Of a stretch of DNA of 64,000 nucleotides, positions 1 through 62,086 are shown in pieces. Below the pieces are notes generated by a model that saw nothing but the letters and a program-made list of their open reading frames with translations, ran no database searches and was not told the origin of the DNA. Made by a program: the position numbers and the translations under genes. Within the stretch, counting starts at the first letter, position 1. Every line of letters begins with the position of its first letter. Source of the DNA: Clavibacter capsici (GTDB lineage Bacteria; Actinomycetota; Actinomycetes; Actinomycetales; Microbacteriaceae); assembly GCF_001280205.1 (NCBI RefSeq), contig NZ_CP012573.1, positions 868,001 to 932,000 of the forward strand. The letters are read 5' to 3'.

Positions 1-1136
1 CCAAGGAGATCAACTCGCTGCGGATCGCGGACGACATCACGCTCCGCATCGGCAAGTACGGGCCGTACCTCGAGGTGCACGAGGAGGGAGCCGCGGAGGA
101 CGCGACCCCCCGCCGCGTGAACCTCCCGGAGGACCTCGCGCCCGACGAGCTCACGTCGGCGAAGGCGCGGGAGCTCATCGACGCCCCGGTCGTCACCGAC
201 CGCGTCATCGGGATCAACCCCGACAACGGCAAGCGCATCGTCGCCAAGGACGGGCGCTACGGCCCCTACGTCACCGAGCTCGACCCCGAGCCCGAGGAGG
301 CGCCGGCTGCCGTCGACACGGCGACGGGCGAGGTGCTCGAGAGCGCCCCCGCGACGACCACGGCGGCACCCGCGAAGAAGGCGCCGGCGAAGAAGACCGC
401 CGCGAAGAAGGCGGCGGCGGTCAAGCCCCGCACGGCCTCCATCTTCAAGTCGATGGACCTCGCGACGGTCGACCTCGAGACGGCGCTGCGACTGCTCGAC
501 CTCCCGCGCGTCGTGGGGGAGGACCCCGAGACGTCCACGCCCATCACCGCGCAGAACGGCAAGTACGGGCCGTACCTCAAGAAGGGGACGGACTCGCGCT
601 CGCTCACGAGCGAGGAGCAGATCTTCGAGATCGACCTCCCCGGGGCCCTCGAGGTGTTCGCGCAGCCGAAGTACGGAGCCCGCCGTCCCTCCAGCGCGCT
701 CAAGGAGTTCGACGCGGATCCGGTGAGCGGCAAGGGCATCAAGGTCAAGGACGGCCGCTTCGGTCCCTACGTCACCGACGGCGAGACCAACGCCACGATC
801 CCGAAGAGCGAGTCCGTCGAGGACATCGACTTCGACCGGGCCGTCGAGCTCCTCGCCGACAAGCGCGCCAAGGGACCCGCCAAGCCCAGGGGCAAGGCCC
901 CGGCCAAGGCGAAGGCCAAGGCGCCCGCGAAGGCGAAGGCCCCGGCGAAGCCGCGCGCCGGCGCGGCCGCCAAGACGACCACCGCGAAGACGACGGCGGC
1001 GAAGACGACCACGGCGAAGACGGCGACTGCCGCGACGCCGTCCGCCAGGTCGGTCGCCGCCACGAAGGCCGCCGCCACGCGGGCCGCCAACAGGGCCGCA
1101 GCCGCTGCCGCCATGACGGCGTCCGACGCGACGTGA
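1..1136 (+). CDS. topA: DNA topoisomerase I, C-terminal part (5' end outside window)
   Basis: Type IA topoisomerase that relaxes negative supercoils. Only the C-terminal end is present; the frame is open from base 3. Three short repeat units typical of bacterial TopA C-termini are visible, each with a GKYGPY-like or GRYGPY/GRFGPY core (near bases 52-68, 250-270, 556-575 and 752-770). These are followed by a lysine/alanine-rich tail of about 90 residues (bases 860-1130) made of AKA, PAK and TAKT blocks, as in actinobacterial TopA tails that bind DNA without a zinc finger. The catalytic tyrosine lies upstream of the window. The stop overlaps the tmk start (GTGA), so the two are probably co-translated. 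Confidence 0.95.
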   Translation, partial: KEINSLRIADDITLRIGKYGPYLEVHEEGAAEDATPRRVNLPEDLAPDELTSAKARELIDAPVVTDRVIGINPDNGKRIVAKDGRYGPYVTELDPEPEEAPAAVDTATGEVLESAPATTTAAPAKKAPAKKTAAKKAAAVKPRTASIFKSMDLATVDLETALRLLDLPRVVGEDPETSTPITAQNGKYGPYLKKGTDSRSLTSEEQIFEIDLPGALEVFAQPKYGARRPSSALKEFDADPVSGKGIKVKDGRFGPYVTDGETNATIPKSESVEDIDFDRAVELLADKRAKGPAKPRGKAPAKAKAKAPAKAKAPAKPRAGAAAKTTTAKTTAAKTTTAKTATAATPSARSVAATKAAATRAANRAAAAAAMTASDAT

Positions 1137-1768
1137 CCGGCGTCTTCATCACGCTGGAGGGCGGCGACGGCGTGGGGAAGTCCACGCAGTCGGCGCTCCT
1201 CCGGGAGTGGTTGGAGGGCCAGGGCCGGGAGGTCGTCGTCACCCGCGAGCCGGGAGGCAGCGAGCTGGGGGCGGAGATCCGCGAGATCGTGCTGCACCGT
1301 CGAGGCCACATCGCCCCTCGCGCGGAGGCCCTGCTCTACGCGGCCGACCGCGCGCACCACATCGAGACGGTCGTCCGGCCCGCCCTCGAGCGGGGCGCCG
1401 TGGTCCTGCAGGACCGCTACCTCGACTCGTCCGTCGCCTACCAGGGAGCCGGGCGGGTGCTCGACGCCGGCGAGATCTGCGAGCTGTCGCTCTGGGCGGC
1501 CGAGGGGCTCCTGCCCGACCTCACCGTCCTGCTGGACCTCGACCAGGCGGCCGCCCGGATCCGGCTCGACGCCGCCCGGACCCGTTTCGACCGGCTCGAG
1601 GCCGAGCGCGGGGAGTTCCACGAGCGCGTCCGCCACGCGTTCCTCGGGCTCGCCGAGGCCGAGCCCGACCGCTTCCTCGTCGTCGACGCCGCGCGTCCCC
1701 GCGAGGAGATCGCCGACGTGATCCGCACGCGGGCCGCCGCGCTCCTCGAGGCGGGGGCGCGCGCATGA
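1133..1768 (+). CDS. tmk: Thymidylate kinase (dTMP kinase)
   Basis: Phosphorylates dTMP to dTDP with ATP in DNA precursor synthesis. The 211-residue length is normal for the family. The P-loop GGDGVGKST is at residues 10-18, followed by the TREPGG motif near residue 38 and the DRYLDSSVAYQG motif near residue 94, both diagnostic of Tmk. The GTG start overlaps the topA stop by four bases, and the 3' end overlaps holB by four bases (ATGA). The topA-tmk-holB order is typical of Actinobacteria. Confidence 0.97.
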   Translation: MTGVFITLEGGDGVGKSTQSALLREWLEGQGREVVVTREPGGSELGAEIREIVLHRRGHIAPRAEALLYAADRAHHIETVVRPALERGAVVLQDRYLDSSVAYQGAGRVLDAGEICELSLWAAEGLLPDLTVLLDLDQAAARIRLDAARTRFDRLEAERGEFHERVRHAFLGLAEAEPDRFLVVDAARPREEIADVIRTRAAALLEAGARA

Positions 1769-2994
1769 GCGACGAGGCGACGGATCCGGCCGTGGCGACG
1801 CCCGCCAGCCCGGACGGGCGCGCCATCTGGGACGAGCTCACGGGCCAGTCCGAGGCCGTCGCGCTCCTCGCCGCGGCCAGCAGCCCGCGGGCCACCGCCC
1901 GCGACGCCAGCGGCACCGCGCTCGCGCACTCCTGGCTCATCACCGGTCCTCCGGGATCCGGCCGTTCGAACCTGGCCTACGCGTTCGCGACCGCGCTGCT
2001 CAGCGACGGCACGCCGGAGGGGGACGCCGCCACCGCCCGCCAGGTCGCCGCCCGGAGCCACCCCGACCTCGGCGTGCTCGCGACGGAGCGCGTCATCATC
2101 GCGATCGACGAGGTGCGGGCGCTCGTCACGTCGTCCCAGTACTCGCCGTCGGTGGGGCGCTACCGGGTCATGGTGGTCGAGGACGCGGATCGCATGACCG
2201 AGCGCACCTCGAACCTGCTGCTCAAGGCGCTCGAGGAGCCGCCGGAGCGCACCATCTGGATCCTCTGCGCGCCCAGCGAGGCCGACCTGATCCCCACCAT
2301 CCGCTCGCGCGTGCGCAGCGTGCGGCTGCGGATCCCGTCCGTCGAGGACGTGGCGGCGCTGATTCGCCGGCGCGACGGCGTCGACGCGGCCACCGCGACG
2401 CGTGCGGCCCGCGAGGCGCAGAGCCACATCGGCATGGCCCACCGCCTCGCCACGGACGCGGAGGCGCGGGAGCGCCGCAGCCGCACGCTCGAGCTCGCGC
2501 TCGGCATCCGCACTGTCGGCGACGCCGTGCGCGCCGCGGCCGCGATGCTCGAGCTCGCGGGCCAGGACGCCAAGGCGTTCACGGTGCAGCGCGACGCCGA
2601 CGAGCGCGAGCGCGCGCTGCGATCCCTCGGCGTGCAGGAGGGCGGGTCCATCCCGCCGCAGCTGCGGTCGCAGATCCGGCAGCTCGAGGAGGACCAGAAG
2701 CGGCGCGCCACCCGGAGTCTCCGGGACGGCATCGACCGGATCCTCGTCGACCTCATGTCCCTGCACCGCGACGTGCTCCTCCACCAGCTGGGCGCCGACC
2801 TGCCGCAGGTGAACGAGGCCATCGCGCCGCGCATCGCCGAGGCGGCCGAGGCCGGGTCCGCCGCGGCATCGCTCGCGGTCCTCGACGCGGTCGGCGTCGC
2901 CCGCCGCCGGATCGACGGCAACGTCTCCCCGGCGCTCGCGCTGGAGGCCATGCTCGTCTCCATCACCCGCACGCGCTCGGCGGGCGTCGCGTGA
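1765..2994 (+). CDS. holB: DNA polymerase III subunit delta'
   Basis: Clamp-loader delta' subunit, 409 residues, AAA+ fold. A Walker-A-like GPPGSGRS lies at residues 61-68, followed by VVEDADRMTERTSNLLLKALEEPP, the conserved delta'/gamma core (quoted here as VVEDADRM and LLKALEEPP). The start is the ATG that overlaps tmk by four bases; an upstream in-frame extension would only run through tmk. Oddities: the cysteine cluster of the usual zinc module is missing between the Walker A motif and the DEVR strand, and the SRC motif reads SRVR. Clamp loading in replication is expected to be retained, since the rest of the fold is intact. Confidence 0.9.
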   Translation: MSDEATDPAVATPASPDGRAIWDELTGQSEAVALLAAASSPRATARDASGTALAHSWLITGPPGSGRSNLAYAFATALLSDGTPEGDAATARQVAARSHPDLGVLATERVIIAIDEVRALVTSSQYSPSVGRYRVMVVEDADRMTERTSNLLLKALEEPPERTIWILCAPSEADLIPTIRSRVRSVRLRIPSVEDVAALIRRRDGVDAATATRAAREAQSHIGMAHRLATDAEARERRSRTLELALGIRTVGDAVRAAAAMLELAGQDAKAFTVQRDADERERALRSLGVQEGGSIPPQLRSQIRQLEEDQKRRATRSLRDGIDRILVDLMSLHRDVLLHQLGADLPQVNEAIAPRIAEAAEAGSAAASLAVLDAVGVARRRIDGNVSPALALEAMLVSITRTRSAGVA

Positions 2995-4568
2995 CGGGCC
3001 GGCGCACGCGCCCGGGGGCGCTCCGCCGCGCCGGGGCGCTGGGAGCGGTGCTGGCCGCCGCCGCGGTCGCGCTGAGCGGATGCGGCCTGATCCCCGTGCC
3101 CGAGCCGCGGAGCTCCACGTCGAGCCCCACCACGGAGGAGGTGGCTCCCGACCTCGCCCGCTACTACGAGCAGGCCATCACGTGGGCGCCCTGCGAGGAC
3201 GGCGCCCAGTGCGCCACCGTGACGGCGCCGCTCGACTGGTCCGCGCCGGATCCCGCCACCGACATCCAGCTCGCCCTCACCCGGCACACCGCGCGCGGCT
3301 CCGGCGGACCGCGCGGATCGCTCTTCGTGAACCCGGGCGGTCCCGGGGCGTCTGGCGTCGACTTCGTGAAGGCCGGCGTCGACCAGGCGGTCTCGCGCGA
3401 CCTGCAGGACGCCTACGACGTGGTCGGCTGGGATCCCCGGGGCGTCGGCGCCTCGACGGCGGTCGACTGCGTCGACGACGCCCAGCTCGACTCCTTCCTC
3501 TACGGCGAGACGGAGGCGCCCCCGGGTACGCCCCAGCACGACGAGGAGCTCGAGCAGGCAGCCCGGTCCTTCGCCGAGTCGTGCGCGACGCGGTCCGGCT
3601 CGCTGCTCGAGTTCATCGACACGCAGAGCACCGTGCACGACCTGGACATGCTGCGCGCCCTGGTGGGGGATCCGCAGCTGAACTACCTCGGCTACTCGTA
3701 CGGCACGAGCATCGGCGCGCAGTACGCGCAGGACTTCCCGACGCACGTCGGGCGCATGGTGCTCGACGGCGCGACGGATCCGTCCGCCACCTCGTTCGAC
3801 GTCCTGCTCGCGCAGGCCCAGGGGTTCCGCACCTCGTTCGAGTCGTACATGGCCGGCTGCCTCGCGGGGCAGGGGTGCCCCTTCCGCGGGTCCGTCGAGG
3901 AGGGCGTGCAGACCGCGTCCGCCCTCCTCGACCGCCTCGACCAGAGCCCGCTGCGCGGCCGCGACGGGCGGGAGCTCGACGGCCAGGTCATGCGCAGCGC
4001 GATCGACTCCGCCCTCTACAGCGAGCGCCAGTGGCCCGCGCTCACGACGGCGTTCGCCGAGGCGCTGCGCGGCGAGTCCGCCACGGCGTTCGCGCTCGCC
4101 GACTCCTACTTCGGCCGCAGCCCGGACGGCAGCTACGCGAGCAACTTCTACGAGGCGTTCCTCGCCATCCAGTGCGTCGACTACCCGGTGGAGCGCGATC
4201 CGGCCGTGCTCGTCCGGGAGGCGGCCGAGATCCGGGCCGCGAGCGGCGAGCTGGCCGACGACGACACGTCCCGGGACGGCGTGCCGGATCCGCTGTGCGG
4301 CAACTGGCCGTACGCGGCGCGCCAGGCGCCGGCGCCCGTGTCGGCGGAGGGCGCGGCGCCCATCGTGGTCGTCGGCACGACGGGCGACCCCGCCACCCCG
4401 TACTCGTGGGCGCAGGCGCTCGCCGGTCAGCTCTCCTCGGGCGTCCTCCTCACCTACGAGGGCGAGGGGCACATCGCCTACGACGAGCGGGATCCCTGCA
4501 TCGTCGCGGCGGTCGACGGGTACCTGCTCGGCGGGGACCCGCCGGCGGCAGGCACCAGCTGCGGCTGA
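2991..4568 (+). CDS. Secreted lipoprotein, alpha/beta hydrolase of the tripeptidyl-aminopeptidase (TAP/SlpD) type
   Basis: 525 residues. A basic N-terminus and hydrophobic stretch end in the lipobox LSGC (Cys near residue 30), so the protein should be a surface lipoprotein. The oxyanion region NPGGPGASG is near residue 115. The nucleophile is Ser236 in GYSYGTS, and the TAP-like C-terminal domain carries VVGTTGDPATPY (Asp) and GEGHIAY (His). Family members in Streptomyces and Mycobacterium release N-terminal peptides or act on ester prodrugs; the substrate here is unknown. The GTG start overlaps holB by four bases, which makes this the last gene of the topA-tmk-holB chain. Confidence 0.88.
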   Translation: MTGRRTRPGALRRAGALGAVLAAAAVALSGCGLIPVPEPRSSTSSPTTEEVAPDLARYYEQAITWAPCEDGAQCATVTAPLDWSAPDPATDIQLALTRHTARGSGGPRGSLFVNPGGPGASGVDFVKAGVDQAVSRDLQDAYDVVGWDPRGVGASTAVDCVDDAQLDSFLYGETEAPPGTPQHDEELEQAARSFAESCATRSGSLLEFIDTQSTVHDLDMLRALVGDPQLNYLGYSYGTSIGAQYAQDFPTHVGRMVLDGATDPSATSFDVLLAQAQGFRTSFESYMAGCLAGQGCPFRGSVEEGVQTASALLDRLDQSPLRGRDGRELDGQVMRSAIDSALYSERQWPALTTAFAEALRGESATAFALADSYFGRSPDGSYASNFYEAFLAIQCVDYPVERDPAVLVREAAEIRAASGELADDDTSRDGVPDPLCGNWPYAARQAPAPVSAEGAAPIVVVGTTGDPATPYSWAQALAGQLSSGVLLTYEGEGHIAYDERDPCIVAAVDGYLLGGDPPAAGTSCG

Positions 4569-4637
4569 CGTCGCGGCGAGGGCGGCGCCCCGTGGTCGGC
4601 GCGGCGTCGCGTGTGCGGGAGGGCCCTCCGGATCCGG

Positions 4638-4643
4638 TATGCT
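4638..4643 (+). promoter_or_regulatory. -10 box of the tRNA-Thr promoter
   Basis: TATGCT lies 37 bases before the mature tRNA 5' end, in the 112-base gap after the hydrolase gene. No convincing -35 box is visible. The rest of the gap holds nothing else recognisable. Confidence 0.5.
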
Positions 4644-4680
4644 CTCTACTCGTGCCCGGTACTCGCTGAGTCCGGGCCGG

Positions 4681-4756
4681 GCCGCCTTAGCTCAGTCGGT
4701 AGAGCATCTCACTCGTAATGAGAAGGTCGTCAGTTCGATTCTGACAGGCGGCTCCA
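4681..4756 (+). tRNA. tRNA-Thr (anticodon CGT)
   Basis: Full cloverleaf. The acceptor pairs GCCGCCT (4681-4687) with AGGCGGC (4746-4752), followed by discriminator T and an encoded CCA. The D stem is GCTC/GAGC. The anticodon stem TCTCA/TGAGA encloses loop CTCGTAA with anticodon CGT at 4714-4716. The T stem is GTCAG/CTGAC with loop TTCGATT. It reads ACG, a frequent Thr codon in this high-GC genome. The flanking DNA shows no integrase or repeated 3' end, so it does not look like an occupied attachment site. Confidence 0.97.
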
Positions 4757-4899
4757 TCACGCCACCCGCGTCGCACGTCCGGTCCCGATCCGGTGCGTCG
4801 TGTCGTGCGTCCGACTCCGGGTCGCGTCCTCCCCAGGTCGCCGCGTCCGTGCCCGTCCCGTGCACCCCGCCATGCCGGCCCCCGTTCGGGGACGGCGTC

Positions 4900-4905
4900 T
4901 AACAT
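4900..4905 (+). promoter_or_regulatory. -10 box of a probable leaderless promoter (dacB)
   Basis: TAACAT is followed by exactly six bases and then the ATG at 4912. Transcription would start at or within a base of the start codon. There is no Shine-Dalgarno sequence. Confidence 0.6.
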
Positions 4906-4911
4906 GGCCCC

Positions 4912-6408
4912 ATGCGATCCCCCGCCGACGGCCCCGAGCACGAGCGCGCCGACGGCACCGGGCCGGGCGCCTCGCGCGGCGCCTCGCGCCGCACCACGCG
5001 AAGCGCGGACCGCCGTCGGGCGCGCACCGTGACCGCCGCCGTGGCCGTCGTCGCCGTGCTCGCCGCCGGATCCGTCGGCGCGGGAGCGCTCACCGGCCGG
5101 GCGGGCAGCGCGTCCGCGAGCGTCGCCGCCACGGCCGACCCGACGCCCACGCCGAGCCCCACGCCCACCGCGGATCCCGCGCGTCCCGCGCCCGCCGCCC
5201 CGGCCGCCGCCCGCGACCTCCGCATGTGCTCCATCTCCTCCCTCGCGAAGGACCCGCGACTCGCCACCTTCGAGGGCCAGGTCCGCGACGTCGCGAGCGG
5301 TCGCGTCCTGTTCGACCGGAACGGCAGCACGCCGGAGCGCACGGCCAGCGTCATGAAGGTCATCACGTCGGCCGCGGCCCTCGCCGCGCTCGGGCCGGAC
5401 CACCGCATCGCCACCACCGTCGTCCGCGGGGCGGAGCCGGGCACGGTCGTCCTGGTCGGCGGCGGCGACCCGACGCTCTCCCGTCTCACCTCGGGCAGCT
5501 CCGTCTACCCGGGGGCCCCGCGCCTCAGCGACCTCGCGCAGCAGGTCCGCGCGGCCTGGGCCGCGGATCCGGCCACGGCGGGCACGCCCATCACCCGCAT
5601 CGTGCTCGACACCTCGCTCTTCTCCGGCGACACGTGGATCCCGTCGTGGGCCGCCAGCGAGCGCAAGGCCGGGTACTCGAGCTTCATGACGCCGCTGCAG
5701 CTCGACGCCGACCGGGCGGACCCCGTGGCCGTCGTGTCGGCGCGCAGCGAGGACCCGCTGGCTCGCGTCGGCAGCACGTTCCGCTCCATGCTCGGCGGAT
5801 CGGCCGACGTCACCCAGGGCACGGCCCCCGCGGGAGCGGCCGTGCTCGGGAAGGTGGAGTCGCAGCCGGTCTCGTCCCTCATCCAGACCGCGCTCATCAA
5901 CTCGGACAACGTGCTCGCCGAGTCGCTCGCGCGGCTCGTGAGCATCCAGGTGGGCGCCGGGAGCACGCAGCAGTCGCTCGCCACGGGCATCCCGAAGGCG
6001 CTGCAGGCGTACGGCCTCGACACCTCCACCCTCGGCATCGTCGACGGGCAGGGGCTGAGCCCCGAGAACCGGGTGCCGCCGTCGCTGCTCGCGCAGCTCA
6101 TGATCCAGGTCGACCAGCGGCAGCAGTCGCTCGGCTACCTGCACGACGGGCTCCCCGTCGCGGGCCGCACCGGCACCCTCGCCGGCCGCTTCACGGGCGA
6201 CAGCGCCGTGGCGCGCGGGCACGTCGTGGCCAAGACCGGCTGGATCGACACGGGCTACACCCTCGCCGGCATCGTCGACGCGGCCGACGGCACCAAGCTC
6301 GCCTTCGCGTTCTACGCCATCGGGAACGTGACGGGCGACGCGAAGATCGCCCTCGACGCGCTCGCGGCGGGCACCTACCGCTGCGGGGCGGACCTGGGGG
6401 ACGAGTGA
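4912..6408 (+). CDS. dacB: D-alanyl-D-alanine carboxypeptidase/endopeptidase, PBP4 (S13) family
   Basis: Periplasmic or wall-side penicillin-binding protein that trims peptidoglycan stem peptides. 498 residues. An Arg-rich N-terminus precedes one membrane or signal segment (about residues 40-60), then a Pro/Thr linker. The three catalytic motifs are all visible: SVMK at 146-149 (nucleophile Ser146), SDN at 331-333 and KTG at 441-443. The S13 layout, with a long insertion between the first two motifs, fits. The gene stands alone behind a probable leaderless promoter. Confidence 0.92.
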   Translation: MRSPADGPEHERADGTGPGASRGASRRTTRSADRRRARTVTAAVAVVAVLAAGSVGAGALTGRAGSASASVAATADPTPTPSPTPTADPARPAPAAPAAARDLRMCSISSLAKDPRLATFEGQVRDVASGRVLFDRNGSTPERTASVMKVITSAAALAALGPDHRIATTVVRGAEPGTVVLVGGGDPTLSRLTSGSSVYPGAPRLSDLAQQVRAAWAADPATAGTPITRIVLDTSLFSGDTWIPSWAASERKAGYSSFMTPLQLDADRADPVAVVSARSEDPLARVGSTFRSMLGGSADVTQGTAPAGAAVLGKVESQPVSSLIQTALINSDNVLAESLARLVSIQVGAGSTQQSLATGIPKALQAYGLDTSTLGIVDGQGLSPENRVPPSLLAQLMIQVDQRQQSLGYLHDGLPVAGRTGTLAGRFTGDSAVARGHVVAKTGWIDTGYTLAGIVDAADGTKLAFAFYAIGNVTGDAKIALDALAAGTYRCGADLGDE

Positions 6409-6472
6409 CGCGCGGCCCGGTCCCGGGCCGCCGGACCACGGCACCGGGCCCGTCCCGGGGAAGGAGCGGCGC

Positions 6473-7063
6473 ATGACGAGGGCACTGTTCATCATCGACG
6501 TCCAGAACGACTTCACGGAGGGCGGCGCGCTCGGCGTCGAGGGCGGCGGCGACGTCGCGCGGGGGATCACCCGGCTCCTCGCCCAGGAGCCGTACCGCTA
6601 CGACCACGTCCTCGCGTCCCGGGACTGGCACGAGGCGACCGGCGACAACGGCGGGCACTTCGCCGCGGCCGGCACCGTGCCCGACTTCTCCACCACCTGG
6701 CCGGAGCACTGCGTGCAGGGCACCCGCGGCGCCGAGTACCACCCCGACCTCGACGTGACCGCCGTCGACTTCCACCTCCGCAAGGGCCAGGGAGCCCCCG
6801 CCTACTCGATCTTCGAGGGCACGACGGAGGACGGCGTGCCGCTCGCGGACCTGCTGGAGCTGCACGACATCACCGACATCGACGTCGTGGGCCTCGCGAC
6901 CGACTACTGCGTGCTGGCCTCGGCGCTCGACGCCGTGCACCAGGGCAAGCGCGTGCGGGTCATCGCCGACCTCGTCGCGGGCGTGGCGCCGGCCACCAGC
7001 GCGGCGGCCCTCGACCGGCTCCGCGACGCCGGGGCGGAGATCGTCGAGGGGCCGGCCGACTGA
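6473..7063 (+). CDS. pncA: Nicotinamidase / pyrazinamidase
   Basis: Hydrolyses nicotinamide to nicotinate in NAD salvage, in the cytoplasm. 196 residues. The catalytic triad is present: Asp9 in IIDVQNDF, Lys104 in HLRKGQ and Cys146 in ATDYCV. The metal-site region with the DWH motif is near residue 50. The ribosome site AAGGAG sits seven bases before the ATG. The next gene is an NAD(P)-dependent dehydrogenase on the same strand 49 bases downstream, possibly co-transcribed. Confidence 0.95.
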   Translation: MTRALFIIDVQNDFTEGGALGVEGGGDVARGITRLLAQEPYRYDHVLASRDWHEATGDNGGHFAAAGTVPDFSTTWPEHCVQGTRGAEYHPDLDVTAVDFHLRKGQGAPAYSIFEGTTEDGVPLADLLELHDITDIDVVGLATDYCVLASALDAVHQGKRVRVIADLVAGVAPATSAAALDRLRDAGAEIVEGPAD

Positions 7064-7112
7064 CGGCCGCCAGCACGCGCACCATCACCACCACGGACGA
7101 AGCGAGGACAGC

Positions 7113-8588
7113 ATGACCGCATCCACCGAGACCGACCTCCTGTCGGCGACGCCCACCACGCTCCTCATCGGGGGCGAGCGCGTGGACGCGGAGGGCGGCG
7201 CCGCGTTCGACGTGCGGGATCCGGCGACCGACGCCGTGATCGCGCGCGTGGCCGACGCGAGCCCGGCCGACGGCATGCGCGCCCTCGACGCCGCGGCGGA
7301 GGCCGCCGCGGACTGGGCCGCCACCGCTCCCCGCGTCCGCGGCGAGATCCTCCGCCGCGCGTTCGACCTCCTGCAGGAGCGCAAGGACGAGTTCGCGCTC
7401 CTCATGACGCTCGAGATGGGCAAGCCGCTCGCCGAGTCTCTCGGCGAGGTCACGTACGGCGGCGAGTTCCTCCGCTGGTTCTCCGAGGAGGCCGTCCGCA
7501 TCACGGGCCGCTACGGCGTCAACCCCGAGGGCACGGGGCGCATGATCGTCTCGCAGCACCCGGTCGGTCCGGTGCTCCTCATCACGCCATGGAACTTCCC
7601 GCTCGCGATGGCGACCCGCAAGATCGCGCCCGCGCTCGCGGCCGGCTGCACCGTCGTCATCAAGCCGGCGGACCTCACGCCGCTCACCACGCTGCGCTTC
7701 GCCGAGCTGCTGGCGGAGGCGGGGCTGCCGGCGGGCGTGCTGAACGTGATCCCCACCACGGACGCCGCGGGCGTCACCGGTCCGATCATCGCCGACCCGC
7801 GGCTGCGCAAGCTGAGCTTCACCGGATCCACGCCCGTCGGCCGCCAGCTCGGGGCGCAGGCGGCCGAGAACGTGCTCCGCGTGTCGCTCGAGCTGGGCGG
7901 CAACGCGCCGTTCGTGGTCTTCGCGGACGCCGACCTCGACAAGGCCGTCGAGGGCGCCATGGCGGCGAAGTTCCGCAACGTCGGGCAGGCGTGCACGGCC
8001 GCGAACCGCTTCATCGTGGAGGCGTCCATCGCGGACGCGTTCGCCGACCGGCTGCAGGAGCGCATCGACGCCATGCAGATCGGGCGCGGCACGGAGGAGG
8101 GCGTGACGGTGGGCCCGCTCATCGACGGCCGCGCGGTCGACAAGGCCGACCGGCTCGTGCGCGACGCCGTCGAGCGCGGCGCGACCGTGCGCGCGGGCGG
8201 CGCGCCGCGGGAGGGCGCGGGGCATTTCTACCCGCCGACCCTCGTCACGGGCGTCGCCGAGGGCAGCGACATCCTGCGCGAGGAGATCTTCGGGCCCGTC
8301 GTCGCGATCGTGCCGTTCGACGACGAGGACGACGCCGTGCGCCTCGCCAACGACACCGAGTACGGCCTCGTCTCCTACGTCTTCACGCGCGACCTCGCCC
8401 TCGGCCAGCGCATGATCGAGCGGCTCGAGACCGGCATGACGGGCCTCAACATGGGCGTCATCTCCAACGCGGCGGCGCCGTTCGGCGGGGTGAAGCAGTC
8501 GGGGCTCGGCCGCGAGGGCGGGCTCGAGGGGATCCACGAGTACCTGAACACGAAGTACACGCTCACGCCCGACCCGTTCGCCTCCTAG
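7113..8588 (+). CDS. gabD: NAD(P)-dependent succinate-semialdehyde dehydrogenase-like aldehyde dehydrogenase
   Basis: 491 residues. Aldehyde dehydrogenase superfamily with general base Glu260 (LELGGN) and nucleophile Cys294 (GQACTAANRF). The N-terminal half resembles GabD (MGKPLAES, TPWNFPLAM, the cofactor loop near FTGSTPVGRQL). It would oxidise succinate semialdehyde or a related aldehyde to the acid. No gabT transaminase is nearby, so a GABA role is unproven and the exact substrate is open. The last base overlaps the next gene's GTG. Confidence 0.88.
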   Translation: MTASTETDLLSATPTTLLIGGERVDAEGGAAFDVRDPATDAVIARVADASPADGMRALDAAAEAAADWAATAPRVRGEILRRAFDLLQERKDEFALLMTLEMGKPLAESLGEVTYGGEFLRWFSEEAVRITGRYGVNPEGTGRMIVSQHPVGPVLLITPWNFPLAMATRKIAPALAAGCTVVIKPADLTPLTTLRFAELLAEAGLPAGVLNVIPTTDAAGVTGPIIADPRLRKLSFTGSTPVGRQLGAQAAENVLRVSLELGGNAPFVVFADADLDKAVEGAMAAKFRNVGQACTAANRFIVEASIADAFADRLQERIDAMQIGRGTEEGVTVGPLIDGRAVDKADRLVRDAVERGATVRAGGAPREGAGHFYPPTLVTGVAEGSDILREEIFGPVVAIVPFDDEDDAVRLANDTEYGLVSYVFTRDLALGQRMIERLETGMTGLNMGVISNAAAPFGGVKQSGLGREGGLEGIHEYLNTKYTLTPDPFAS

Positions 8589-19417: not shown

Positions 19418-20329
19418 ATGACCACCACCGCATCCGCCCCCGCCGCCACGGCCGCCGTCGTCACAGGCGCCGCGGCCGGCACCCCGCCCCGCCGCCGGCG
19501 CCGCACCGACCGCGGCCGGCGCACCCGCGCGATCGTCTACCTCGTCCTCGCCGCCGTGCTCTGCGTCTGGCTCCTGCCCTTCATCTGGATGGCGCTCGGG
19601 TCCGTGAAGACGCAGGGCGAGATCCTGCAGCGACCGCCCACGTGGTGGCCCCAGGATCCCGTCGCGGACAACTTCGCCCAGTGGTTCGGGCCGCTGGACT
19701 TCGGCACGTTCTTCTCCAACAGCCTCGTCGTCGCGCTCGTCACGGTGCTCGGCAACCTCGTGTTCTGCTCGATGGTCGGCTACGCGCTCGCGAAGATGGA
19801 GTTCCCCGGCAAGCGCATCCTCTTCCTGACCGTGATGGTGACGCTCATGGTGCCGGGCGTCGTCACCTTCGTGCCGCTGTTCGTCATGGTCTCGGGGCTC
19901 GGCCTCGTGAACACGTACGCGGCGCTCATCCTCCCCTTCATCACGGCGCCCATCGGGGTGTTCCTCATGCGGCAGTTCATGCTCGGGATCCCGGAGGCGC
20001 TCATCGAGGCCGCCCGGCTCGACGGCGCGGGGGAGTTCCGCATCTTCGCCCGCATCGTGATGCCGCTGTGCGGGCCGCCGCTCGCGACGCTCGGGATCCT
20101 CACGTTCCTCGCGTCGTGGAACAACTTCCTCTGGCCGCTCGTCGCGGCGCAGACGGAGCAGATGTACACGCTGCCGATCGCGCTGTCGCTGTACTCGACC
20201 GGGCAGAACGCGACCGACTACGGCCTGCTGCTCGCCGGATCCGTGCTGGTGATCGCGCCGATCCTCGCCCTGTTCGTGTTCCTGCAGCGCTACTTCATCC
20301 AGGGCGTCGCGACCGCCGGCCTCAAGTGA
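19418..20329 (+). CDS. Sugar ABC transporter permease (MalG type)
   Basis: 303 residues. A Thr/Ala-rich and then Arg-rich N-terminus precedes six membrane segments. The EAA loop reads EALIEAARLDGAGEFRIFARI near residue 195, followed by MPLCGPPLATLGILTFLASWNNF, typical of MalG-like permeases. It forms the membrane channel together with the preceding gene. GAAAGG lies about nine bases before the ATG. Confidence 0.92.
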   Translation: MTTTASAPAATAAVVTGAAAGTPPRRRRRTDRGRRTRAIVYLVLAAVLCVWLLPFIWMALGSVKTQGEILQRPPTWWPQDPVADNFAQWFGPLDFGTFFSNSLVVALVTVLGNLVFCSMVGYALAKMEFPGKRILFLTVMVTLMVPGVVTFVPLFVMVSGLGLVNTYAALILPFITAPIGVFLMRQFMLGIPEALIEAARLDGAGEFRIFARIVMPLCGPPLATLGILTFLASWNNFLWPLVAAQTEQMYTLPIALSLYSTGQNATDYGLLLAGSVLVIAPILALFVFLQRYFIQGVATAGLK

Positions 20330-20361
20330 CCCCCTCCCGCCTCCGACCCCTGGAGACCCCC

Positions 20362-22224
20362 ATGCCCCGCGCCCCGCGCACGCTCCTCACCGCCCCCGAC
20401 GGCACCCGGTTCCGCGACCTCGACGGCGACGGGGTGATGGCGCCGTACGAGGACCCGCGGCTGACCCCCGAGGAGCGGACGGCCGACCTGGTGGGCCGCC
20501 TCAGCCTCGCCGAGAAGGCCGGCCTCATGTTCCAGACCGTGATCGAGGTGGGCGCCGACGGCGAGCTGAAGGAGGAGCCGGGCGCGATCTCGAAGTCCGG
20601 CACCACGGAGGTCGTGGTGGGCAAGGCCATGAACCACTTCAACGTGCACGAGATCCGCACGGCCCGGCAGGCCGCGCGCTGGAGCAACCGGCTGCAGGAG
20701 CTGGCGGAGTCGACGCCGCACGGGATCCCCGTCACGGTCAGCACGGATCCGCGGCACGCCTTCGTCGAGAACGCGGGCGTCGCCTTCTCGGCGGGCCCGT
20801 TCTCCCAGTGGCCGGAGGCGCTCGGCCTCGCGGCCCTCGACGACGTCGACGCGATCCGCGCGTTCGCCGACACCGCGCGGCAGGAGTACGTGGCCGTGGG
20901 GATCCGCGCGGCGCTGCACCCCCAGATCGACCTCGCCACCGAGCCGCGCTGGGGCCGGCAGGCGCAGACGCTCGGGCACGACGCCGACCGCGTCGCCGAG
21001 TTCACGGCCGCGTACCTCGAGGGCTTCCAGGGCGACGCGCTCGGATCCACGAGCGTCGCCTGCACCACCAAGCACTTCCCGGGCGGCGGCCCGCAGAAGG
21101 ACGGCGAGGACGCGCACTTCCCCTACGGCCGCGAGCAGGTGTACCCGGGCGGCATGTTCGAGTACCACCTGCGCCCGTTCCGCGAGGCGATCGCGCGCGG
21201 GACCGCCGCGATGATGCCGTACTACGGCATGCCCGAGGGGCTCGTGCGCGGCGGCGAGGAGATCGAGCCGGTGGGCTTCGGCTTCAACCGGCAGGTGATC
21301 ACGGGGCTGCTGCGCGAGGAGCTCGGCTACGACGGCGTCGTGGTCACCGACTGGGAGCTCGTGAACGACAACCACGTGGGCGACCAGGTGCTGCCGGCGC
21401 GCGCGTGGGGCGTCGAGGAGCTGACGCCGCACGAGCGGATGCAGCGGATCATCGAGGCGGGCTGCGACCAGTTCGGCGGCGAGGAGTGCGTCGACGTGCT
21501 GCTCGACCTCGTGGCGGACGGCCGCGTGACGGAGGCGCGCATCGACGAGTCGGTGCGCCGCCTGCTGCTCGTGAAGTTCCAGCTGGGGCTCTTCGACGAC
21601 CCGTACGTCGACGAGGACGCGGCCGAGCGGATCGTCGGCCGCGCCGACTTCCGCGAGCTCGGCACCCGCGCGCAGGCCGCGTCGGTCACGGTGCTGGAGA
21701 ACCGGGAGCGCGACGGGCGCCCGACGCTGCCGCTCCCGGTCGACGGGCCGCGGCTGCGCGTGCACGTCGAGGGGCTGCGGCCGGAGGCGCTCGACGGCTG
21801 GGCGGATCCCGCCGCGACCCCCGAGGAGGCCGACCTCGCCATCGTGCGGCTCGGCGCCCCCTTCGAGCCGCGCTCCGACCTGTTCCTCGAGGCGTGGTTC
21901 CACCAGGGGTCGCTCGAGTTCCCGCCCGGGCTCGTGCACCGGCTGCGGCGGATCGCCGACCGTTGCCCGCTCGTCGTCGTCGTCAACCTCGACCGGCCGG
22001 CGATCATGACGCCGCTGCTGCCGTTCGTCTCCGCGCTCGCCGTGGACTACGGCAGCTCCGACGCGGCCGTGCTCGACGCGCTCACGGGCAGGGTCGCGCC
22101 GGTGGGGCGGCTGCCGGTGGAGATCCCGCGCTCGATGGACGCCGTGCGCGCCTCGCGCACGGACGTGCCCTCGGACACGGAGGACCCGGTGTACCCGCTG
22201 CACCACGGTCTCCGGATCCCCTGA
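20362..22224 (+). CDS. Glycoside hydrolase family 3 (beta-glucosidase/beta-xylosidase type), cytoplasmic
   Basis: 620 residues with no signal peptide. The N-terminal barrel carries LSLAEKAGLMFQ, the KHFPGGG motif near residue 236 and the nucleophile Asp330 in VVVTDWELV. A second alpha/beta domain follows (VVNLDRPAIMTPLLP, GRLPVEIPRS). It should hydrolyse a beta-linked sugar after import by the preceding ABC transporter. The ATG at 20362 has TGGAG seven bases upstream and lies 32 bases after the permease stop, consistent with one operon. The exact sugar cannot be read from the sequence. Confidence 0.9.
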   Translation: MPRAPRTLLTAPDGTRFRDLDGDGVMAPYEDPRLTPEERTADLVGRLSLAEKAGLMFQTVIEVGADGELKEEPGAISKSGTTEVVVGKAMNHFNVHEIRTARQAARWSNRLQELAESTPHGIPVTVSTDPRHAFVENAGVAFSAGPFSQWPEALGLAALDDVDAIRAFADTARQEYVAVGIRAALHPQIDLATEPRWGRQAQTLGHDADRVAEFTAAYLEGFQGDALGSTSVACTTKHFPGGGPQKDGEDAHFPYGREQVYPGGMFEYHLRPFREAIARGTAAMMPYYGMPEGLVRGGEEIEPVGFGFNRQVITGLLREELGYDGVVVTDWELVNDNHVGDQVLPARAWGVEELTPHERMQRIIEAGCDQFGGEECVDVLLDLVADGRVTEARIDESVRRLLLVKFQLGLFDDPYVDEDAAERIVGRADFRELGTRAQAASVTVLENRERDGRPTLPLPVDGPRLRVHVEGLRPEALDGWADPAATPEEADLAIVRLGAPFEPRSDLFLEAWFHQGSLEFPPGLVHRLRRIADRCPLVVVVNLDRPAIMTPLLPFVSALAVDYGSSDAAVLDALTGRVAPVGRLPVEIPRSMDAVRASRTDVPSDTEDPVYPLHHGLRIP

Positions 22225-22240
22225 TCGCGGCGGTGCCCGC

Positions 22241-22257
22241 CCCGCGGTCGCCGCGGG
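22241..22257 (+). terminator. Hairpin after the glycoside operon
   Basis: CCCGCGG and CCGCGGG pair perfectly around a TCG loop, 16 bases after the GH3 stop. There is no T-run. The following lacI-type gene has its own -10 box (TACGCT, 22283-22288). Confidence 0.4.
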
Positions 22258-22309
22258 CTCGGTCGGCCGCGCCCTCCTCGCCTACGCTTCCAGGAGAGAG
22301 GACGGTCGC

Positions 22310-23449
22310 ATGAGCCCCCGACGCCCCACGGTCTACGACGTCGCCGAACGCGCGAAGGTCTCCATCGCGACCGTGTCGTTCGCGTTCAGCCGACCGGACC
22401 AGATCAGCCAGGCGACCCGGGAGCGGGTGCTCGAGACGGCCCGCGAGATCGGCTACATGCCGAGCGCGTCCGCCCGCGGCCTCGCCCGGGGCCGCACGGG
22501 CGCGCTCGGCCTGCACTCGTTCGACCTCCTCATCGACCGGCCGCTCCAGCGCGAGCCCGACGAGCCGGCCGCGGCGGCCGACGCCGGGGCCCAGCGGGAG
22601 CCGTACGCGCCCGGCCGCACGTTCCTCCCGTGGGACGAGGCGGGCGAGGTCGCGGCGGATCCGCGCGCGTTCCCGCTCTACGTCGACGAGGTGCGGCGCG
22701 GCTTCGAGCTCGAGTGCCGCGCCCACGACCGGCCCGTGATGCTCAGCCGCGGCAGCGACACGACGACCGCGGTCGCGGAGTCCGCCGGCCGCGTCGACGG
22801 GCTCGCGATCTTCCCGGGCCCGTCCGCGGCGGCGTCGCTCACGCGCGTCTCGCTCAGGATGCCGATCGTGCTCTTCAGCTACCCGCCGGCCGACGACGGG
22901 CACCACCGGGTCACGTCCGACAACGCCGGGGGAGCGCGCGACCTGGTGCGGCACCTCGTCATCGAGCACGGGATCACCGACCTGGGCTTCGTGGGCGCCA
23001 CGACCGTCGGCGACTACCGGGAGCGGTTCGAGGGGTGCATGGCGGCGCTGGCGGAGCTCGGCGTCCCGGCTCCGGACGAGGTGCTCGACGACACCGTGCT
23101 CGGCGAGGGATCCGGCTTCGGCGGCGTCATGGCCGCGCTCCGGGCGGGCCGCCTGCCGCGCGCGCTCGTGTGCGCGAGCGACCAGCTGGCCCTCGCGCTC
23201 GTCGACCTGCTGCGGGCGGAGGGCGTGGACGTTCCGGGCGACGTGGTGGTCACGGGCTTCGACGGGATCCTCGCGGGCCTCCTCTCGACGCCGCGGCTGA
23301 CGACCGTGCGGCAGCCCATGGAGGCCATGGGGCGCGCGGCCGCCCGCATCCTCATCGACACGACGAGCGCCCCGCAGCAGGCGGATCCGGTGACCCTGCG
23401 GCTCGGCACGAAGCTCGTGGTGCGCGAGAGCTGCGGCTGCCGGGGCTGA
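22310..23449 (+). CDS. LacI-family transcriptional regulator
   Basis: 379 residues. The HTH is at residues 6-30 (TVYDVAERAKVSIATVSFAF) with hinge ASARGLARGRTGALGL. The sugar-sensing core ends in LVVRESCGC. An unusual proline/alanine/acid-rich stretch of about 45 residues (about 80-125) separates the first core strand from the YVDEVRRGFE helix; typical relatives lack it. It probably represses the upstream ABC-GH3 operon through the palindrome at 17133. RBS AGGAGAG and -10 TACGCT (22283-22288) indicate independent transcription. Confidence 0.9.
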   Translation: MSPRRPTVYDVAERAKVSIATVSFAFSRPDQISQATRERVLETAREIGYMPSASARGLARGRTGALGLHSFDLLIDRPLQREPDEPAAAADAGAQREPYAPGRTFLPWDEAGEVAADPRAFPLYVDEVRRGFELECRAHDRPVMLSRGSDTTTAVAESAGRVDGLAIFPGPSAAASLTRVSLRMPIVLFSYPPADDGHHRVTSDNAGGARDLVRHLVIEHGITDLGFVGATTVGDYRERFEGCMAALAELGVPAPDEVLDDTVLGEGSGFGGVMAALRAGRLPRALVCASDQLALALVDLLRAEGVDVPGDVVVTGFDGILAGLLSTPRLTTVRQPMEAMGRAAARILIDTTSAPQQADPVTLRLGTKLVVRESCGCRG

Positions 23450-23455
23450 CGTCGC

Positions 23456-23668
23456 CTAGCGCCGCAGCGACCGCCGGCGCACGACCTCCACGACGAGGCC
23501 GATCACGACGAGCGCGGCGCCGGCCGCGACGAACGCCCAGGCCACCCCGATGCCGTCCGGCTCCTCGCCCGCGATCCCGCCCATCACGGCGCCGAGCGCC
23601 ACGGCGAGGACGAGCGCGCCGGATCCCGCGACGACGGCGGCCAGGACCTTCACGTCGATCGCCGTCAC
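23456..23668 (-). CDS. Small membrane protein, two helices
   Basis: 70 residues. Hydrophobic segments lie at about 8-30 and 42-62, with a basic C-terminus (VRRRSLRR). The GTG start overlaps the stop of the MOSC gene by four bases (GTGA), which supports real, coupled translation. No family is recognised. It ends seven bases from the convergent lacI-type gene. Confidence 0.6.
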   Translation of the reverse strand: MTAIDVKVLAAVVAGSGALVLAVALGAVMGGIAGEEPDGIGVAWAFVAAGAALVVIGLVVEVVRRRSLRR

Positions 23669-24219
23669 ACCGGCTGCAGCGCCAGCTGCTCGCCCGCGGG
23701 CAGCTCCACGCGCACGGCGTCGTCGGGGCGGACCTCGCCGCCGGTGATCACGACGCCCATGACGCCGGACTTCCGCACGACGTTGCCGTCGGCGTCGCGG
23801 TCGAGCACCGCCTTCATGGCGCCCGCGCCGAGCGCGTCGATCTGGATGCAGGGGTTCCGCAGCCCGGTCAGCTCCACGACGGCCTCGTCGCCGAGGTGCA
23901 GCCGGGTGCCGGTCGGCAGGTCGAGGAGCGGGACGCCCGCGGTCGTGACGTTCTCGCCGAGGTCACCGGGGCCCACCGCGTAGCCCTTGCCCGCGAGCTC
24001 CTCGTGCAGCTCGGCGTGGACCAGGTGCACCTGGCGGAGGTTCGGCGCGTCCGGGTCGCGGCGCTTCCGGGAGAGGTGCTGCACGGTGGTGCCGAGGTGC
24101 GCGTCGCCCTCGACGCCGAGCCCGGCGAGGAGCGTGATCGACGTGCGGACGGGCTTGGAGAAGCGGTGGGCGTCGTCGCGCGCGACCGCGAGGACCCGGG
24201 GCGAGGGGGACGGCTGCAT
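23665..24219 (-). CDS. MOSC-domain protein
   Basis: 184 residues. MOSC domains are molybdenum-cofactor sulfurase C-terminal folds that carry or transfer sulfur. The motifs GVEGDAHLG, GDLGENVTT and LTGLRNPCIQID are diagnostic; the cysteine in NPC is the conserved one. Stand-alone bacterial MOSC proteins (YiiM-like) have been linked to molybdenum-dependent reduction of N-hydroxylated compounds. No molybdenum cofactor gene is nearby. The ATG follows a probable leaderless promoter. Confidence 0.88.
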   Translation of the reverse strand: MQPSPSPRVLAVARDDAHRFSKPVRTSITLLAGLGVEGDAHLGTTVQHLSRKRRDPDAPNLRQVHLVHAELHEELAGKGYAVGPGDLGENVTTAGVPLLDLPTGTRLHLGDEAVVELTGLRNPCIQIDALGAGAMKAVLDRDADGNVVRKSGVMGVVITGGEVRPDDAVRVELPAGEQLALQPV

Positions 24220-24226
24220 GCCTGCG

Positions 24227-24232
24227 ACGATA
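24227..24232 (-). promoter_or_regulatory. -10 box of a probable leaderless promoter (MOSC gene)
   Basis: On the minus strand TATCGT is followed by seven bases and then the ATG at 24219. Confidence 0.5.
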
Positions 24233-24337
24233 GCGACGCCGCGCCCGCGGGGCGAGCCCTCCCGCCGGACGGGGGCGCGACGTGCCGCACGTGCCGCCCG
24301 GCATGCGTCGTGGTCGCGCCGTGGGCGGGGGACGCGC

Positions 24338-24371
24338 GGAGGGCCGGGCCGACGTGTCGGCCCGGCCCTCC
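24338..24371 (-). terminator. Long perfect hairpin after the first MHS transporter gene
   Basis: GGAGGGCCGGGCCGAC (24338-24353) pairs over all 16 bases with 24356-24371. It sits 21 bases beyond the stop of the MHS gene read on the minus strand, and within the 172-base gap that precedes it. There is no T-run, as is common for actinobacterial terminators. Confidence 0.7.
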
Positions 24372-24391
24372 CGATCGTCGGCTCGCGGTGA

Positions 24392-54394: not shown

Positions 54395-54440
54395 ATCGTT
54401 CGTGTGCCGACGACCTCCGCGTGGGCCTCGACGAGGCTAG

Positions 54441-54446
54441 TAGATT
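54441..54446 (+). promoter_or_regulatory. -10 box of a probable leaderless promoter (add)
   Basis: TAGATT, six bases, then the ATG at 54453; identical in form to the box before the first BMP gene. Confidence 0.6.
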
Positions 54447-54452
54447 CGTCCC

Positions 54453-55571: not shown

Positions 55572-55641
55572 CCCGGGCGCCACGGCCTCCCGTCCCGCTC
55601 GTCCCGTCCCGCTCGCCGCTTCGACAGAGAGGTCGCACCCC

Positions 55642-57939: not shown

Positions 57940-57945
57940 GGCGTG

Positions 57946-57977
57946 AGGCTAGCGCACTGATAGCGGCACTACCAGTG
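57946..57977 (-). promoter_or_regulatory. MerR-type promoter with operator dyad in the spacer; leaderless start
   Basis: -10 TAGCCT (57946-57951) is six bases before the ATG at 57939. Directly upstream, CACTGATAG (57955-57963) and CTACCAGTG (57969-57977) form an inverted repeat with one mismatch around CGGCA. The dyad lies where the -35/-10 spacer should be, the usual site for MerR-family regulators. Confidence 0.6.
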
Positions 57978-57991
57978 GCGCGCGGAAGGGG

Positions 57992-58018
57992 TCCGCGGGC
58001 CGTCGTGCGGCCCGCGGA
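57992..58018 (-). terminator. Hairpin after the PNP-phosphomutase operon
   Basis: TCCGCGGGCCG (57992-58002) pairs perfectly with CGGCCCGCGGA (58008-58018). It begins 11 bases beyond the phosphomutase stop. Confidence 0.7.
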
Positions 58019-58028
58019 TCCTCCTCGG

Positions 58029-60556: not shown

Positions 60557-60562
60557 GCCCCG

Positions 60563-60568
60563 ATCCTA
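60563..60568 (-). promoter_or_regulatory. -10 box of a probable leaderless promoter (PNP)
   Basis: TAGGAT on the minus strand, six bases, then the ATG at 60556. Confidence 0.6.
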
Positions 60569-60646
60569 AATGCGCGGACGGGGGCGGCCCGGGTCGCCGC
60601 GACGGGCGGGTTCGCGCGCGACGCGGGGCTACGCGATGATGTGCGC

Positions 60647-62086
60647 ATGGGATACGAGTTCGAGGCCAACCAGCGGATCGCCGTCCTCGGAGGAGGGCCC
60701 GGCGGCTACGAGGCCGCCATCGCCGGAGCCCAGCTCGGCGCGGAGGTGACGCTCGTGGAGCGCGTGGGCGTCGGCGGCTCGGCCGTGATGACCGACGTCG
60801 TCCCCTCGAAGACCCTCATCGCCACCGCCGAGGCCACCAACGCGCTCGGCGAGGCCGCGGACCTCGGCGTCCAGTTCTTCTCCCGCGGCGAGCAGACGCG
60901 CCGGCCCGTGCGGCCCGAGGTGGCCGTCAACCTCCAGGCCGTCAACGACCGCCTGCTCCGCCTCGCGCGCCAGCAGTCCGAGGACATGAAGTCGAGCCTC
61001 ATCCGCGCGGGCGTCCGCATCGTGCAGGGCGAGGGCCGGCTCGACGGGCCGAACCGCATCATTGTCTCCACCGGCCGGGGCGGGGCCGGCACCGACTTCG
61101 ACGAGATCGACGCCGACACCACGGTCATCTCCACGGGCGCGAGCCCCCGCATCCTCCCCACGGCCAAGCCGGACGGCGAGCGGATCCTCACGTGGACGCA
61201 GCTCTACACGATGGAGTGCGTGCCCGAGCACCTCATCGTCGTCGGATCCGGCGTCACGGGCGCCGAGTTCGCCTCCGCCTACACGGCGCTCGGCGCGAAG
61301 GTCACGCTCATCTCCTCCCGCGACCAGGTGCTGCCCGGCGAGGACGCCGACGCCGCCCGCGTCATCGAGGACGTCTTCACGCGCAACGGCATGACCGTGC
61401 TGTCGAAGTCCCGCGCCGAGTCGGTCGTGCGCCAGGGCGACGGCGTGGTCGCGACGCTCGCCGACGGCCGGGTCGTCGAGGGCAGCCACTGCCTCATGGC
61501 GGTCGGATCCGTGCCGAACACCTCGGGGCTCGGCCTGGAGGAGGCGGGCGTGCAGATGAGCGAGTCCGGCCACATCCGGGTCAACCGCGTCGCGCGCACC
61601 TCCGTGCCGAGCGTGTACGCGGCCGGCGACTGCACCACGTTCCTCCCGCTCGCGTCCGTCGCGTCGATGCAGGGCCGCACGGCCGTCTACCACGCGATGG
61701 GCGACGCGGTCAGCCCCACCGAGCTCCGCAACGTGACCTCGAACATCTTCACGCAGCCGGAGATCGCGACGGTCGGCTGGTCGCAGAAGCAGATCGAGGA
61801 GGGGCTCGCGCAGGGCGACATCTACAAGCTCCCGCTCGCCTCGAACCCCCGGGCCAAGATGCAGAACGTGAAGGACGGCTTCGTGAAGCTGTTCGCGCGC
61901 ACCGGCTCCGGCACGGTCATCGGCGGCGTCATCGTGGCGCCCAAGGCGAGCGAGCTGATCTTCCCGCTCGCGCTCGCGGTGGAGCACCGCCTCACCGTGG
62001 ACGACGTCGCGCGTGCGTTCACGGTCTACCCGTCGCTCTCGGGGAGCATCTCCGACGCGGCGCGCGCCATGCACATCGTCCTCTGA
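60647..62086 (+). CDS. lpdA: LpdA-type NAD(P)H:quinone oxidoreductase (flavoprotein disulfide reductase family)
   Basis: 479 residues. FAD motif AVLGGGPGGYEAA, NAD motif VVGSGVTGAEFA, second FAD motif VYAAGDCTTFLPLA and a dimerisation domain. The redox region (about 42-54) reads GVGGSAVMTDVVPSK: neither cysteine of the usual GGTCLNVGCIPSK is present. That places it with mycobacterial LpdA (Rv3303c), a quinone reductase rather than a lipoamide dehydrogenase. A GATGAT hexamer six bases before the ATG may be another leaderless promoter. Confidence 0.88.
   Translation: MGYEFEANQRIAVLGGGPGGYEAAIAGAQLGAEVTLVERVGVGGSAVMTDVVPSKTLIATAEATNALGEAADLGVQFFSRGEQTRRPVRPEVAVNLQAVNDRLLRLARQQSEDMKSSLIRAGVRIVQGEGRLDGPNRIIVSTGRGGAGTDFDEIDADTTVISTGASPRILPTAKPDGERILTWTQLYTMECVPEHLIVVGSGVTGAEFASAYTALGAKVTLISSRDQVLPGEDADAARVIEDVFTRNGMTVLSKSRAESVVRQGDGVVATLADGRVVEGSHCLMAVGSVPNTSGLGLEEAGVQMSESGHIRVNRVARTSVPSVYAAGDCTTFLPLASVASMQGRTAVYHAMGDAVSPTELRNVTSNIFTQPEIATVGWSQKQIEEGLAQGDIYKLPLASNPRAKMQNVKDGFVKLFARTGSGTVIGGVIVAPKASELIFPLALAVEHRLTVDDVARAFTVYPSLSGSISDAARAMHIVL

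Follow-up and report, generated by a model that had tools for sequence, protein, structure and literature searches.

GGATCC as an iterated word of Clavibacter: very probably one dialect of a word spread through the Microbacteriaceae, and possibly a DNA uptake signal

The hexamer GGATCC is strongly over-represented in a 64,000-nucleotide stretch of the Clavibacter capsici chromosome (positions 868001-932000 of contig C1 in genome G000), which was analysed whole and is referred to here as the window. In support of this host, 12 kb of the genome's 146-kb contig match a plasmid of Clavibacter capsici at 100.0% identity; the earlier sequence-only reading, which pointed to Microbacteriaceae, had the family right. 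The excess is real, and the copies are held one by one against synonymous decay. Comparison with relatives indicates that the palindrome is very probably one dialect of a word found across the family Microbacteriaceae. Analogy with known systems, together with the presence of the necessary machinery, suggests a DNA uptake signal as the best single mechanism, at a probability of about 0.45.

Base composition predicts 20.5 copies of GGATCC in the window, which contains 125, a 6.1-fold excess. An earlier sequence-only reading had counted 14 copies in each of positions 1-5000 and 20001-25000 with a single GGTACC, and our recount agrees (14 and 14, with GGTACC at 1 and 0). The nine-fold excess that it proposed applies to those two 5-kb pieces only and is too high for the window. 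Markov models raise the expectation to 32.8 (order 1), 54.2 (order 3) and 91.1 (maximal, fourth order), corresponding to 3.8-, 2.3- and 1.4-fold excesses. Because high-order models contain pieces of GGATCC itself, we chose shuffles that keep both proteins and codon usage, either freely among synonyms or with the bases at codon junctions also preserved. Against these, the 96 copies in window coding sequence compare with 18.3 (free shuffle, 5.25-fold) and 27.8 (junction-preserving, 3.46-fold), which puts GGATCC first among hexamers expected more than twice. A larger coding sample of 317,718 bases, made up of the window and 20 sampled 20-kb stretches, held 549 copies against 110.3 and 162.3, again at rank 1 in both, and the next-highest palindrome under the junction-preserving null was ACCGGT at 1.23. 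Neither a ratio near 1 nor a like excess of other palindromes, either of which the sequence-only reading said would count against it, was found under the codon nulls.

When motif-free codon usage was the null (window plus 18 chromosomal stretches), 563 copies were observed against 100.9, or 5.6-fold. Across the codon-preserving nulls the excess of GGATCC, the leading hexamer, spans 3.4- to 5.6-fold. By frame the excess was 20.5-, 2.1- and 26.4-fold, the 20- to 26-fold values belonging to the two frames that require rare codons, while the counts were similar (205, 182 and 176). These near-equal counts despite unequal fold excess indicate that the word, and not the codons, sets the density. The sequence-only reading had suggested that many copies override codon preference; 176 of 349 GAT codons lie within the motif, and elsewhere GAT provides 2.8% of Asp codons.

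The copies form an interspersed array from 716 to 61510 of the window, strandless because the word is a palindrome, with starts at 716, 1557, 1782, 1954, 2258, 2330, 2738, 3248, 3431, 3668, 3776, 4286, 4490, 4630, 5068, 5172, 5565, 5636, 7217, 7824, 8530, 8620, 8971, 9312, 9402, 10880, 11267, 11510, 12566, 12926, 13162, 13904, 14571, 15013, 15451, 15616, 15933, 17077, 17930, 17982, 18254, 18351, 18379, 18775, 19185, 19654, 19986, 20094, 20237, 20723, 20745, 20900, 21043, 21804, 22214, 22657, 23108, 23265, 23383, 23621, 24635, 25559, 26095, 26253, 27064, 27622, 28004, 28549, 28909, 29304, 30297, 30892, 31358, 31411, 32362, 32641, 33611, 34344, 34587, 35904, 36192, 36210, 36676, 36880, 37480, 37721, 37759, 38513, 39098, 39312, 40197, 42542, 43266, 43479, 43921, 45217, 47789, 48498, 49019, 49115, 50115, 50289, 50473, 51417, 51970, 52905, 52990, 53835, 54175, 54651, 54891, 55261, 56608, 56686, 56866, 57471, 57647, 58016, 58900, 59665, 60018, 60326, 61182, 61244 and 61505. 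Their spacing is approximately random (mean 490, coefficient of variation 0.86), and the 96 that lie inside genes, as called with a simple GC-frame caller, use all three frames (29, 39 and 28). Taken whole (1 to 64000, without regard to strand), the window is a sample of a genome-wide feature, with 1.95 copies per kb against 1.82 per kb for the genome (5,909 in 3,241,713 bases). Density climbed with local GC content across 23 chromosomal stretches of this genome, two of which overlap by 13 kb (r = 0.82). GGATCC is itself less GC-rich than the genome, yet low-GC and plasmid DNA are poorer in it (observed/expected 1.7 and 2.0 for plasmids). A separate observation from the 317,718-base coding sample is a strong depletion of CCCCCC (42 against 143, junction-preserving null).

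Maintenance of individual sites was assessed in 33 genes from 14 Clavibacter species, with the behaviour of the same codons elsewhere as the expectation; species and pairs are related, and the pair counts are therefore not independent events. A GGATCC of one species recurred in another in 77.4% of comparisons, where 33.1% was expected, and this observed/expected ratio of 2.34 is the highest among the 869 hexamers that had sufficient instances (mean 1.04, standard deviation 0.14). Single-base changes of the motif numbered 1,180 against 7,202 expected and were scarce at all six positions. Among GAT codons, 85.8% inside GGATCC were retained as GAT, compared with 39.1% elsewhere, a difference of 0.47 with a gene-bootstrap range of 0.33-0.59; the same was true for GGA (79.5% against 36.7%) and TCC (92.1% against 76.6%).

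A single window could not reveal that the palindrome appears to be a dialect, used by Clavibacter, of a word lacking palindromic symmetry in most sampled relatives. All 18 Clavibacter genomes carry GGATCC in 3,964 to 6,455 copies. Among 398 genomes of the family, densities above 1 per kb were confined to 10 Clavibacter genomes and two others, G202 (6,067 copies in 3.3 Mb) and G189 (2,680 in 1.9 Mb), followed by G021 (0.93 per kb) and G164 (0.86 per kb). The genus-mates of these two outliers had 783-1,632 copies (seven sampled mates of G202, genus g106) and 137-592 (mates of G189). Counts of GGATGCC were 812 in G202 against 1,614-5,725 in its seven mates, 823-1,202 in the 10 Clavibacter genomes and 2,917-7,429 in genus g78; the window has 23 copies of this word of the relatives, as GGATGCC or GGCATCC. 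G164 is rich in both words (3,772 GGATCC and 6,046 GGATGCC), and two genomes of genus g72 are without an excess of either (229 and 223 against reversed-word controls of 245 and 248).

Codon nulls gave the same division. The top hexamer in the genus-mates of G202 and in g78 was GCATCC/GGATGC, at 2.1- to 2.8-fold, and in these relatives the 7-mer GGATGCC reached 567 against 157 and the best 9-mer, CGGATGCCG, 216 against 34.5; for G202 itself GGATCC stood at 161 against 47.3. Extended 9-mers were enriched both in G202 (GACGGATCC, 17 against 2.1) and in the relatives (GACGGATGC, 73 against 10.6), with the left side GACGGAT common to the two and CGGAT as the core common to both dialects. Flank preferences are weak in Clavibacter, where homologous loci are shared among 13 to 14 species, so that pooled dialect and flank counts are not independent. 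A further set of 80 named loci, of which 72 were used in 31 groups after 8 short ones were dropped, was found entirely through a Tad gene and thus favours pilus-bearing species; GGATGCC was at least 1.8-fold in 24 of the 31 groups, including Agromyces, Salinibacterium, Humibacter, Leifsonia, Mycetocola, Cryobacterium and Glaciihabitans, and Clavibacter was alone in having GGATCC at 2-fold or more. Both words were below the mark in Plantibacter, Amnibacterium, Homoserinimonas, Agreia and two further groups. In 139 genomes from other families of the order, the ratio of word to reversed word was mostly low and was highest in family f4 (up to 1,361 against 206).

Conservation was reciprocal. In g78 GGATGCC had an observed/expected ratio of 3.89, second among 326 words to CGGATGC, which overlaps it, and GGATCC one of 0.90; in Cryobacterium GCATCC scored 2.02 (rank 4 of 713) and GGATCC 0.71. 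This reciprocity between GGATCC in Clavibacter and GGATGCC in g78 indicates that each lineage keeps its own dialect. The word of the relatives appears to be CGGATGCC(G), non-palindromic and present in most sampled Microbacteriaceae, and the Clavibacter form appears to be CGGATCC with a palindromic core, a form that the lineages of G202 and G189 apparently carry independently of Clavibacter. Reconstruction of the switch site by site within g106 was abandoned, because aligned genes of its species share just 65-73% identity with those of G202, leaving sites unalignable and gains unpolarisable.

Two side observations concern the distribution of related words. Outside the Microbacteriaceae, three genomes of genus g23 in family f4 (G470, G483 and G535) have a moderate surplus of GGATGCC, which outnumbers the reversed word about 5- to 6.6-fold. 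Within sampled stretches, CGATCC is in excess in L079 of G034 (49 against 23) and in L121-L123 of G127 (49 against 26), which may represent a third dialect.

Among the drivers named in the sequence-only reading, which had included an uptake or recombination mark, a recognition or uptake mark fits these patterns best, with uptake itself an inference. A cell-surface receptor, probably on a Flp/Tad pilus feeding ComEC, would prefer word-bearing DNA; incoming DNA from kin would then restore lost copies and spread new ones in all frames by molecular drive, and a shift in receptor preference would lead the genome slowly to change dialect. The genes for such a route are present: ComEC was found in 45 of 45 genomes tested, and Clavibacter has a Flp/Tad pilus locus with TadA (ATPase), TadB/C- (membrane), TadE- and TadG-type genes. 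In Micrococcus luteus, a member of the same order, transformation is described as requiring Flp pili, with comEA and comEC present (PMC6370729). A second TadE-type gene stands beside a DUF4244 reading frame in the adjoining stretch L170 (C1:862001-868000 of G000) and ends about 2.6 kb before the window. The fuller proposal, of a family-wide uptake code in Actinobacteria in which Microbacteriaceae are tagged with CGGATGCC, a Flp-pilus receptor is the reader and Clavibacter-like lineages have switched to CGGATCC, is a tentative one, to which we give rather less than even odds.

Several results weigh against an uptake signal. ComEC also occurs in genomes without the word and does not discriminate. 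TadE turned up in 19 of 20 word-rich, 12 of 22 word-poor and 2 of 3 in-between genomes, classes that were set by hand and a comparison that genome reduction in small genomes confounds, and the gene was missed in the word-rich G024; with ComEC universal and TadE loosely associated, both were rejected as discriminating genes. The Tad proteins of G202 are no closer to those of Clavibacter than are those of G362 (TadE 47.4 against 47.9%, TadF 44.7 against 42.0%, TadG 39.5 against 45.3%), and in this comparison, with its one switched genome, no receptor among TadE, TadF and TadG tracked the dialect. We found no paper on competence in Clavibacter in the open-licence literature. The Clavibacter core is only 6 bp with weak flanks, shorter than known uptake sequences. 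In short intergenic gaps GGATCC was about 2-fold enriched (115 against 56.0, rank 8 of 1,055), in a test that counted about 13 kb twice through the overlap of stretches L011 and L155. Conservation of the 7-mer GGATGCC was weak in Cryobacterium (1.45, rank 418 of 1,893) and Agromyces (1.65, rank 425 of 1,824, 5 genes), and for GGATCC in G164, although in excess, conservation was not found.

An alternative is that a methylation-dependent repair system gives rise to GGATCC and preserves it, and does likewise for GGATGCC in the relatives, along the lines that Elhai proposed for the highly iterated palindromes (HIPs) of cyanobacteria. At 1,823 per Mb (1.82 per kb), the genomic density of GGATCC falls within the range given by Elhai for HIPs (PMC4390886) and within the 0.5-2.5 per kb expected of a HIP, and a core PF01555 gene, of N6-methyladenine (m6A) type by its DPPF motif, is present in all 18 Clavibacter genomes, some of which have more. 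The same enzyme, however, occurs in genera of the other dialect at 57-67% identity and in the word-poor G030, and the GGATCC-rich G189 has nothing closely homologous to it (best match 63 residues, E 3.2e-6). No column of its conserved domain cleanly separates the dialects, the aligned C-terminal half being alike across them, and it was therefore rejected as the dialect switch. The other C5 and N6 families were rejected as drivers for their patchiness: PF00145 is absent from 11 and PF02384 from 7 of the 18 Clavibacter genomes, and G007, without either and with one PF01555 gene, still has 5,823 GGATCC. PF02086 is absent from G000, the sole genome tested for it. With these families patchy and the core enzyme shared across dialects, there is no common candidate: a fitting methyltransferase was not found in PF01555, PF00145 or PF02384 (18 Clavibacter genomes) or PF02086 (G000), other families not having been searched, and the methylase suggested as a driver by the sequence-only reading is unsupported to that extent. 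We regard this explanation as unlikely. The gene at C1:376890-377741 of G000 (L045 9689-10834, minus strand) encodes a CcrM/YhdJ-like m6A-type methyltransferase that is conserved over much of the family, highly so in its C-terminal half.

A mark that organizes the chromosome or guides recombination, comparable to Chi, the FtsK-orienting polar sequences (KOPS) or a nucleoid-protein site, would have an intracellular reader. Site-by-site maintenance and even spread would suit any such reader, and on the plus strand of 26 stretches the non-palindromic form is mildly biased in orientation (748 GGATGC against 636 GCATCC). KOPS and Chi sites are strongly strand-biased, whereas a palindrome carries no direction; a change of dialect and a two-dialect genome are also harder to account for, and no reader was found. 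This too seems improbable to us.

GGATCC is the BamHI site, which could point to a restriction-modification target or its relic. Such targets are usually avoided, whereas GGATCC is enriched, no candidate methyltransferase emerged from the families searched, and the Clavibacter phage CN1A does not avoid the word (10 against 6.9 expected in 48 kb), so that we consider this very unlikely. Repair of the Vsr type enriches its own target words, and a bias of this kind could turn one neighbour word into GGATCC by single substitutions. At none of the six positions, however, do losses reach the expected level, and words one mismatch away show no overall depletion (0.77-1.42; no search for Vsr itself was made), making this a more remote prospect still. 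The neighbour depletion that such conversion would leave was rejected as a signal, since the dip seen under a plain shuffle (for example GAATCC at 0.33) disappeared once motif codons were masked. An artefact of codon usage or composition, with which the fourth-order ratio of just 1.4 would agree, is refuted by the first rank under codon nulls, and the occurrence in all frames, the conservation at synonymous sites and the absence from family members of like GC content leave it next to no credibility.

We found no description of GGATCC or GGATGCC as an iterated word in Microbacteriaceae in the open-licence literature. If the uptake code is true, gene exchange in a large environmental and plant-associated family would be tagged by sequence, and barriers to recombination would be explained in part by dialect switches at the genus level, with Clavibacter-like lineages cut off from exchange with relatives. 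Uptake codes would then extend to a Gram-positive phylum, in which naturally switched dialects could help to find the receptor. If the word does not serve uptake, some reader yet to be explained would still be keeping thousands of copies of so short a word in place, in two distinct versions and at odds with codon usage. Either way, G202 with its g106 mates and the two-dialect G164 provide natural material for finding the reader.

Uptake signal sequences of Pasteurellaceae are interspersed 9-bp cores at about 1 per kb with flanking AT tracts; they belong to another phylum, and differ from the Clavibacter word in sequence, in their greater length and in those tracts. The competence of M. luteus, with ComEA/ComEC and Flp pili, resembles the combination of ComEC and a Flp/Tad locus in Clavibacter, of the same order, whose competence is putative; the account consulted describes no uptake sequence for M. 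luteus (PMC6370729). The resemblance to cyanobacterial HIP1 noted in the sequence-only reading holds for density, use of all reading frames and lineage specificity, and fails in the lack of a methyltransferase in the families searched and in the non-palindromic word of the relatives. HIPs and alternate HIPs are likewise highly iterated GC-rich palindromes at 1-2 per kb that replace another word in a few lineages, such as GGGATCCC in two Synechococcus strains; unlike GGATCC, each HIP is reported to be accompanied by a methyltransferase able to modify it, and the family-wide form in Microbacteriaceae is not palindromic (PMC4390886). The nearest behavioural match is the DNA uptake sequences (DUS) of Neisseriaceae. 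DUS are 10- to 12-mers of Gram-negatives with a proven effect on uptake (PMC3630211), unlike a 6-9 bp word of Actinobacteria whose core is palindromic in Clavibacter and whose role in uptake we infer. Both, however, have thousands of coding copies across a family in which some members are without the word, and in both the dialects differ by one base or one insertion around a common core: wadDUS is AT-DUS with a single T inserted, and two dialects occur side by side in S. muelleri (PMC3630211), as they do in G164 among the Microbacteriaceae.

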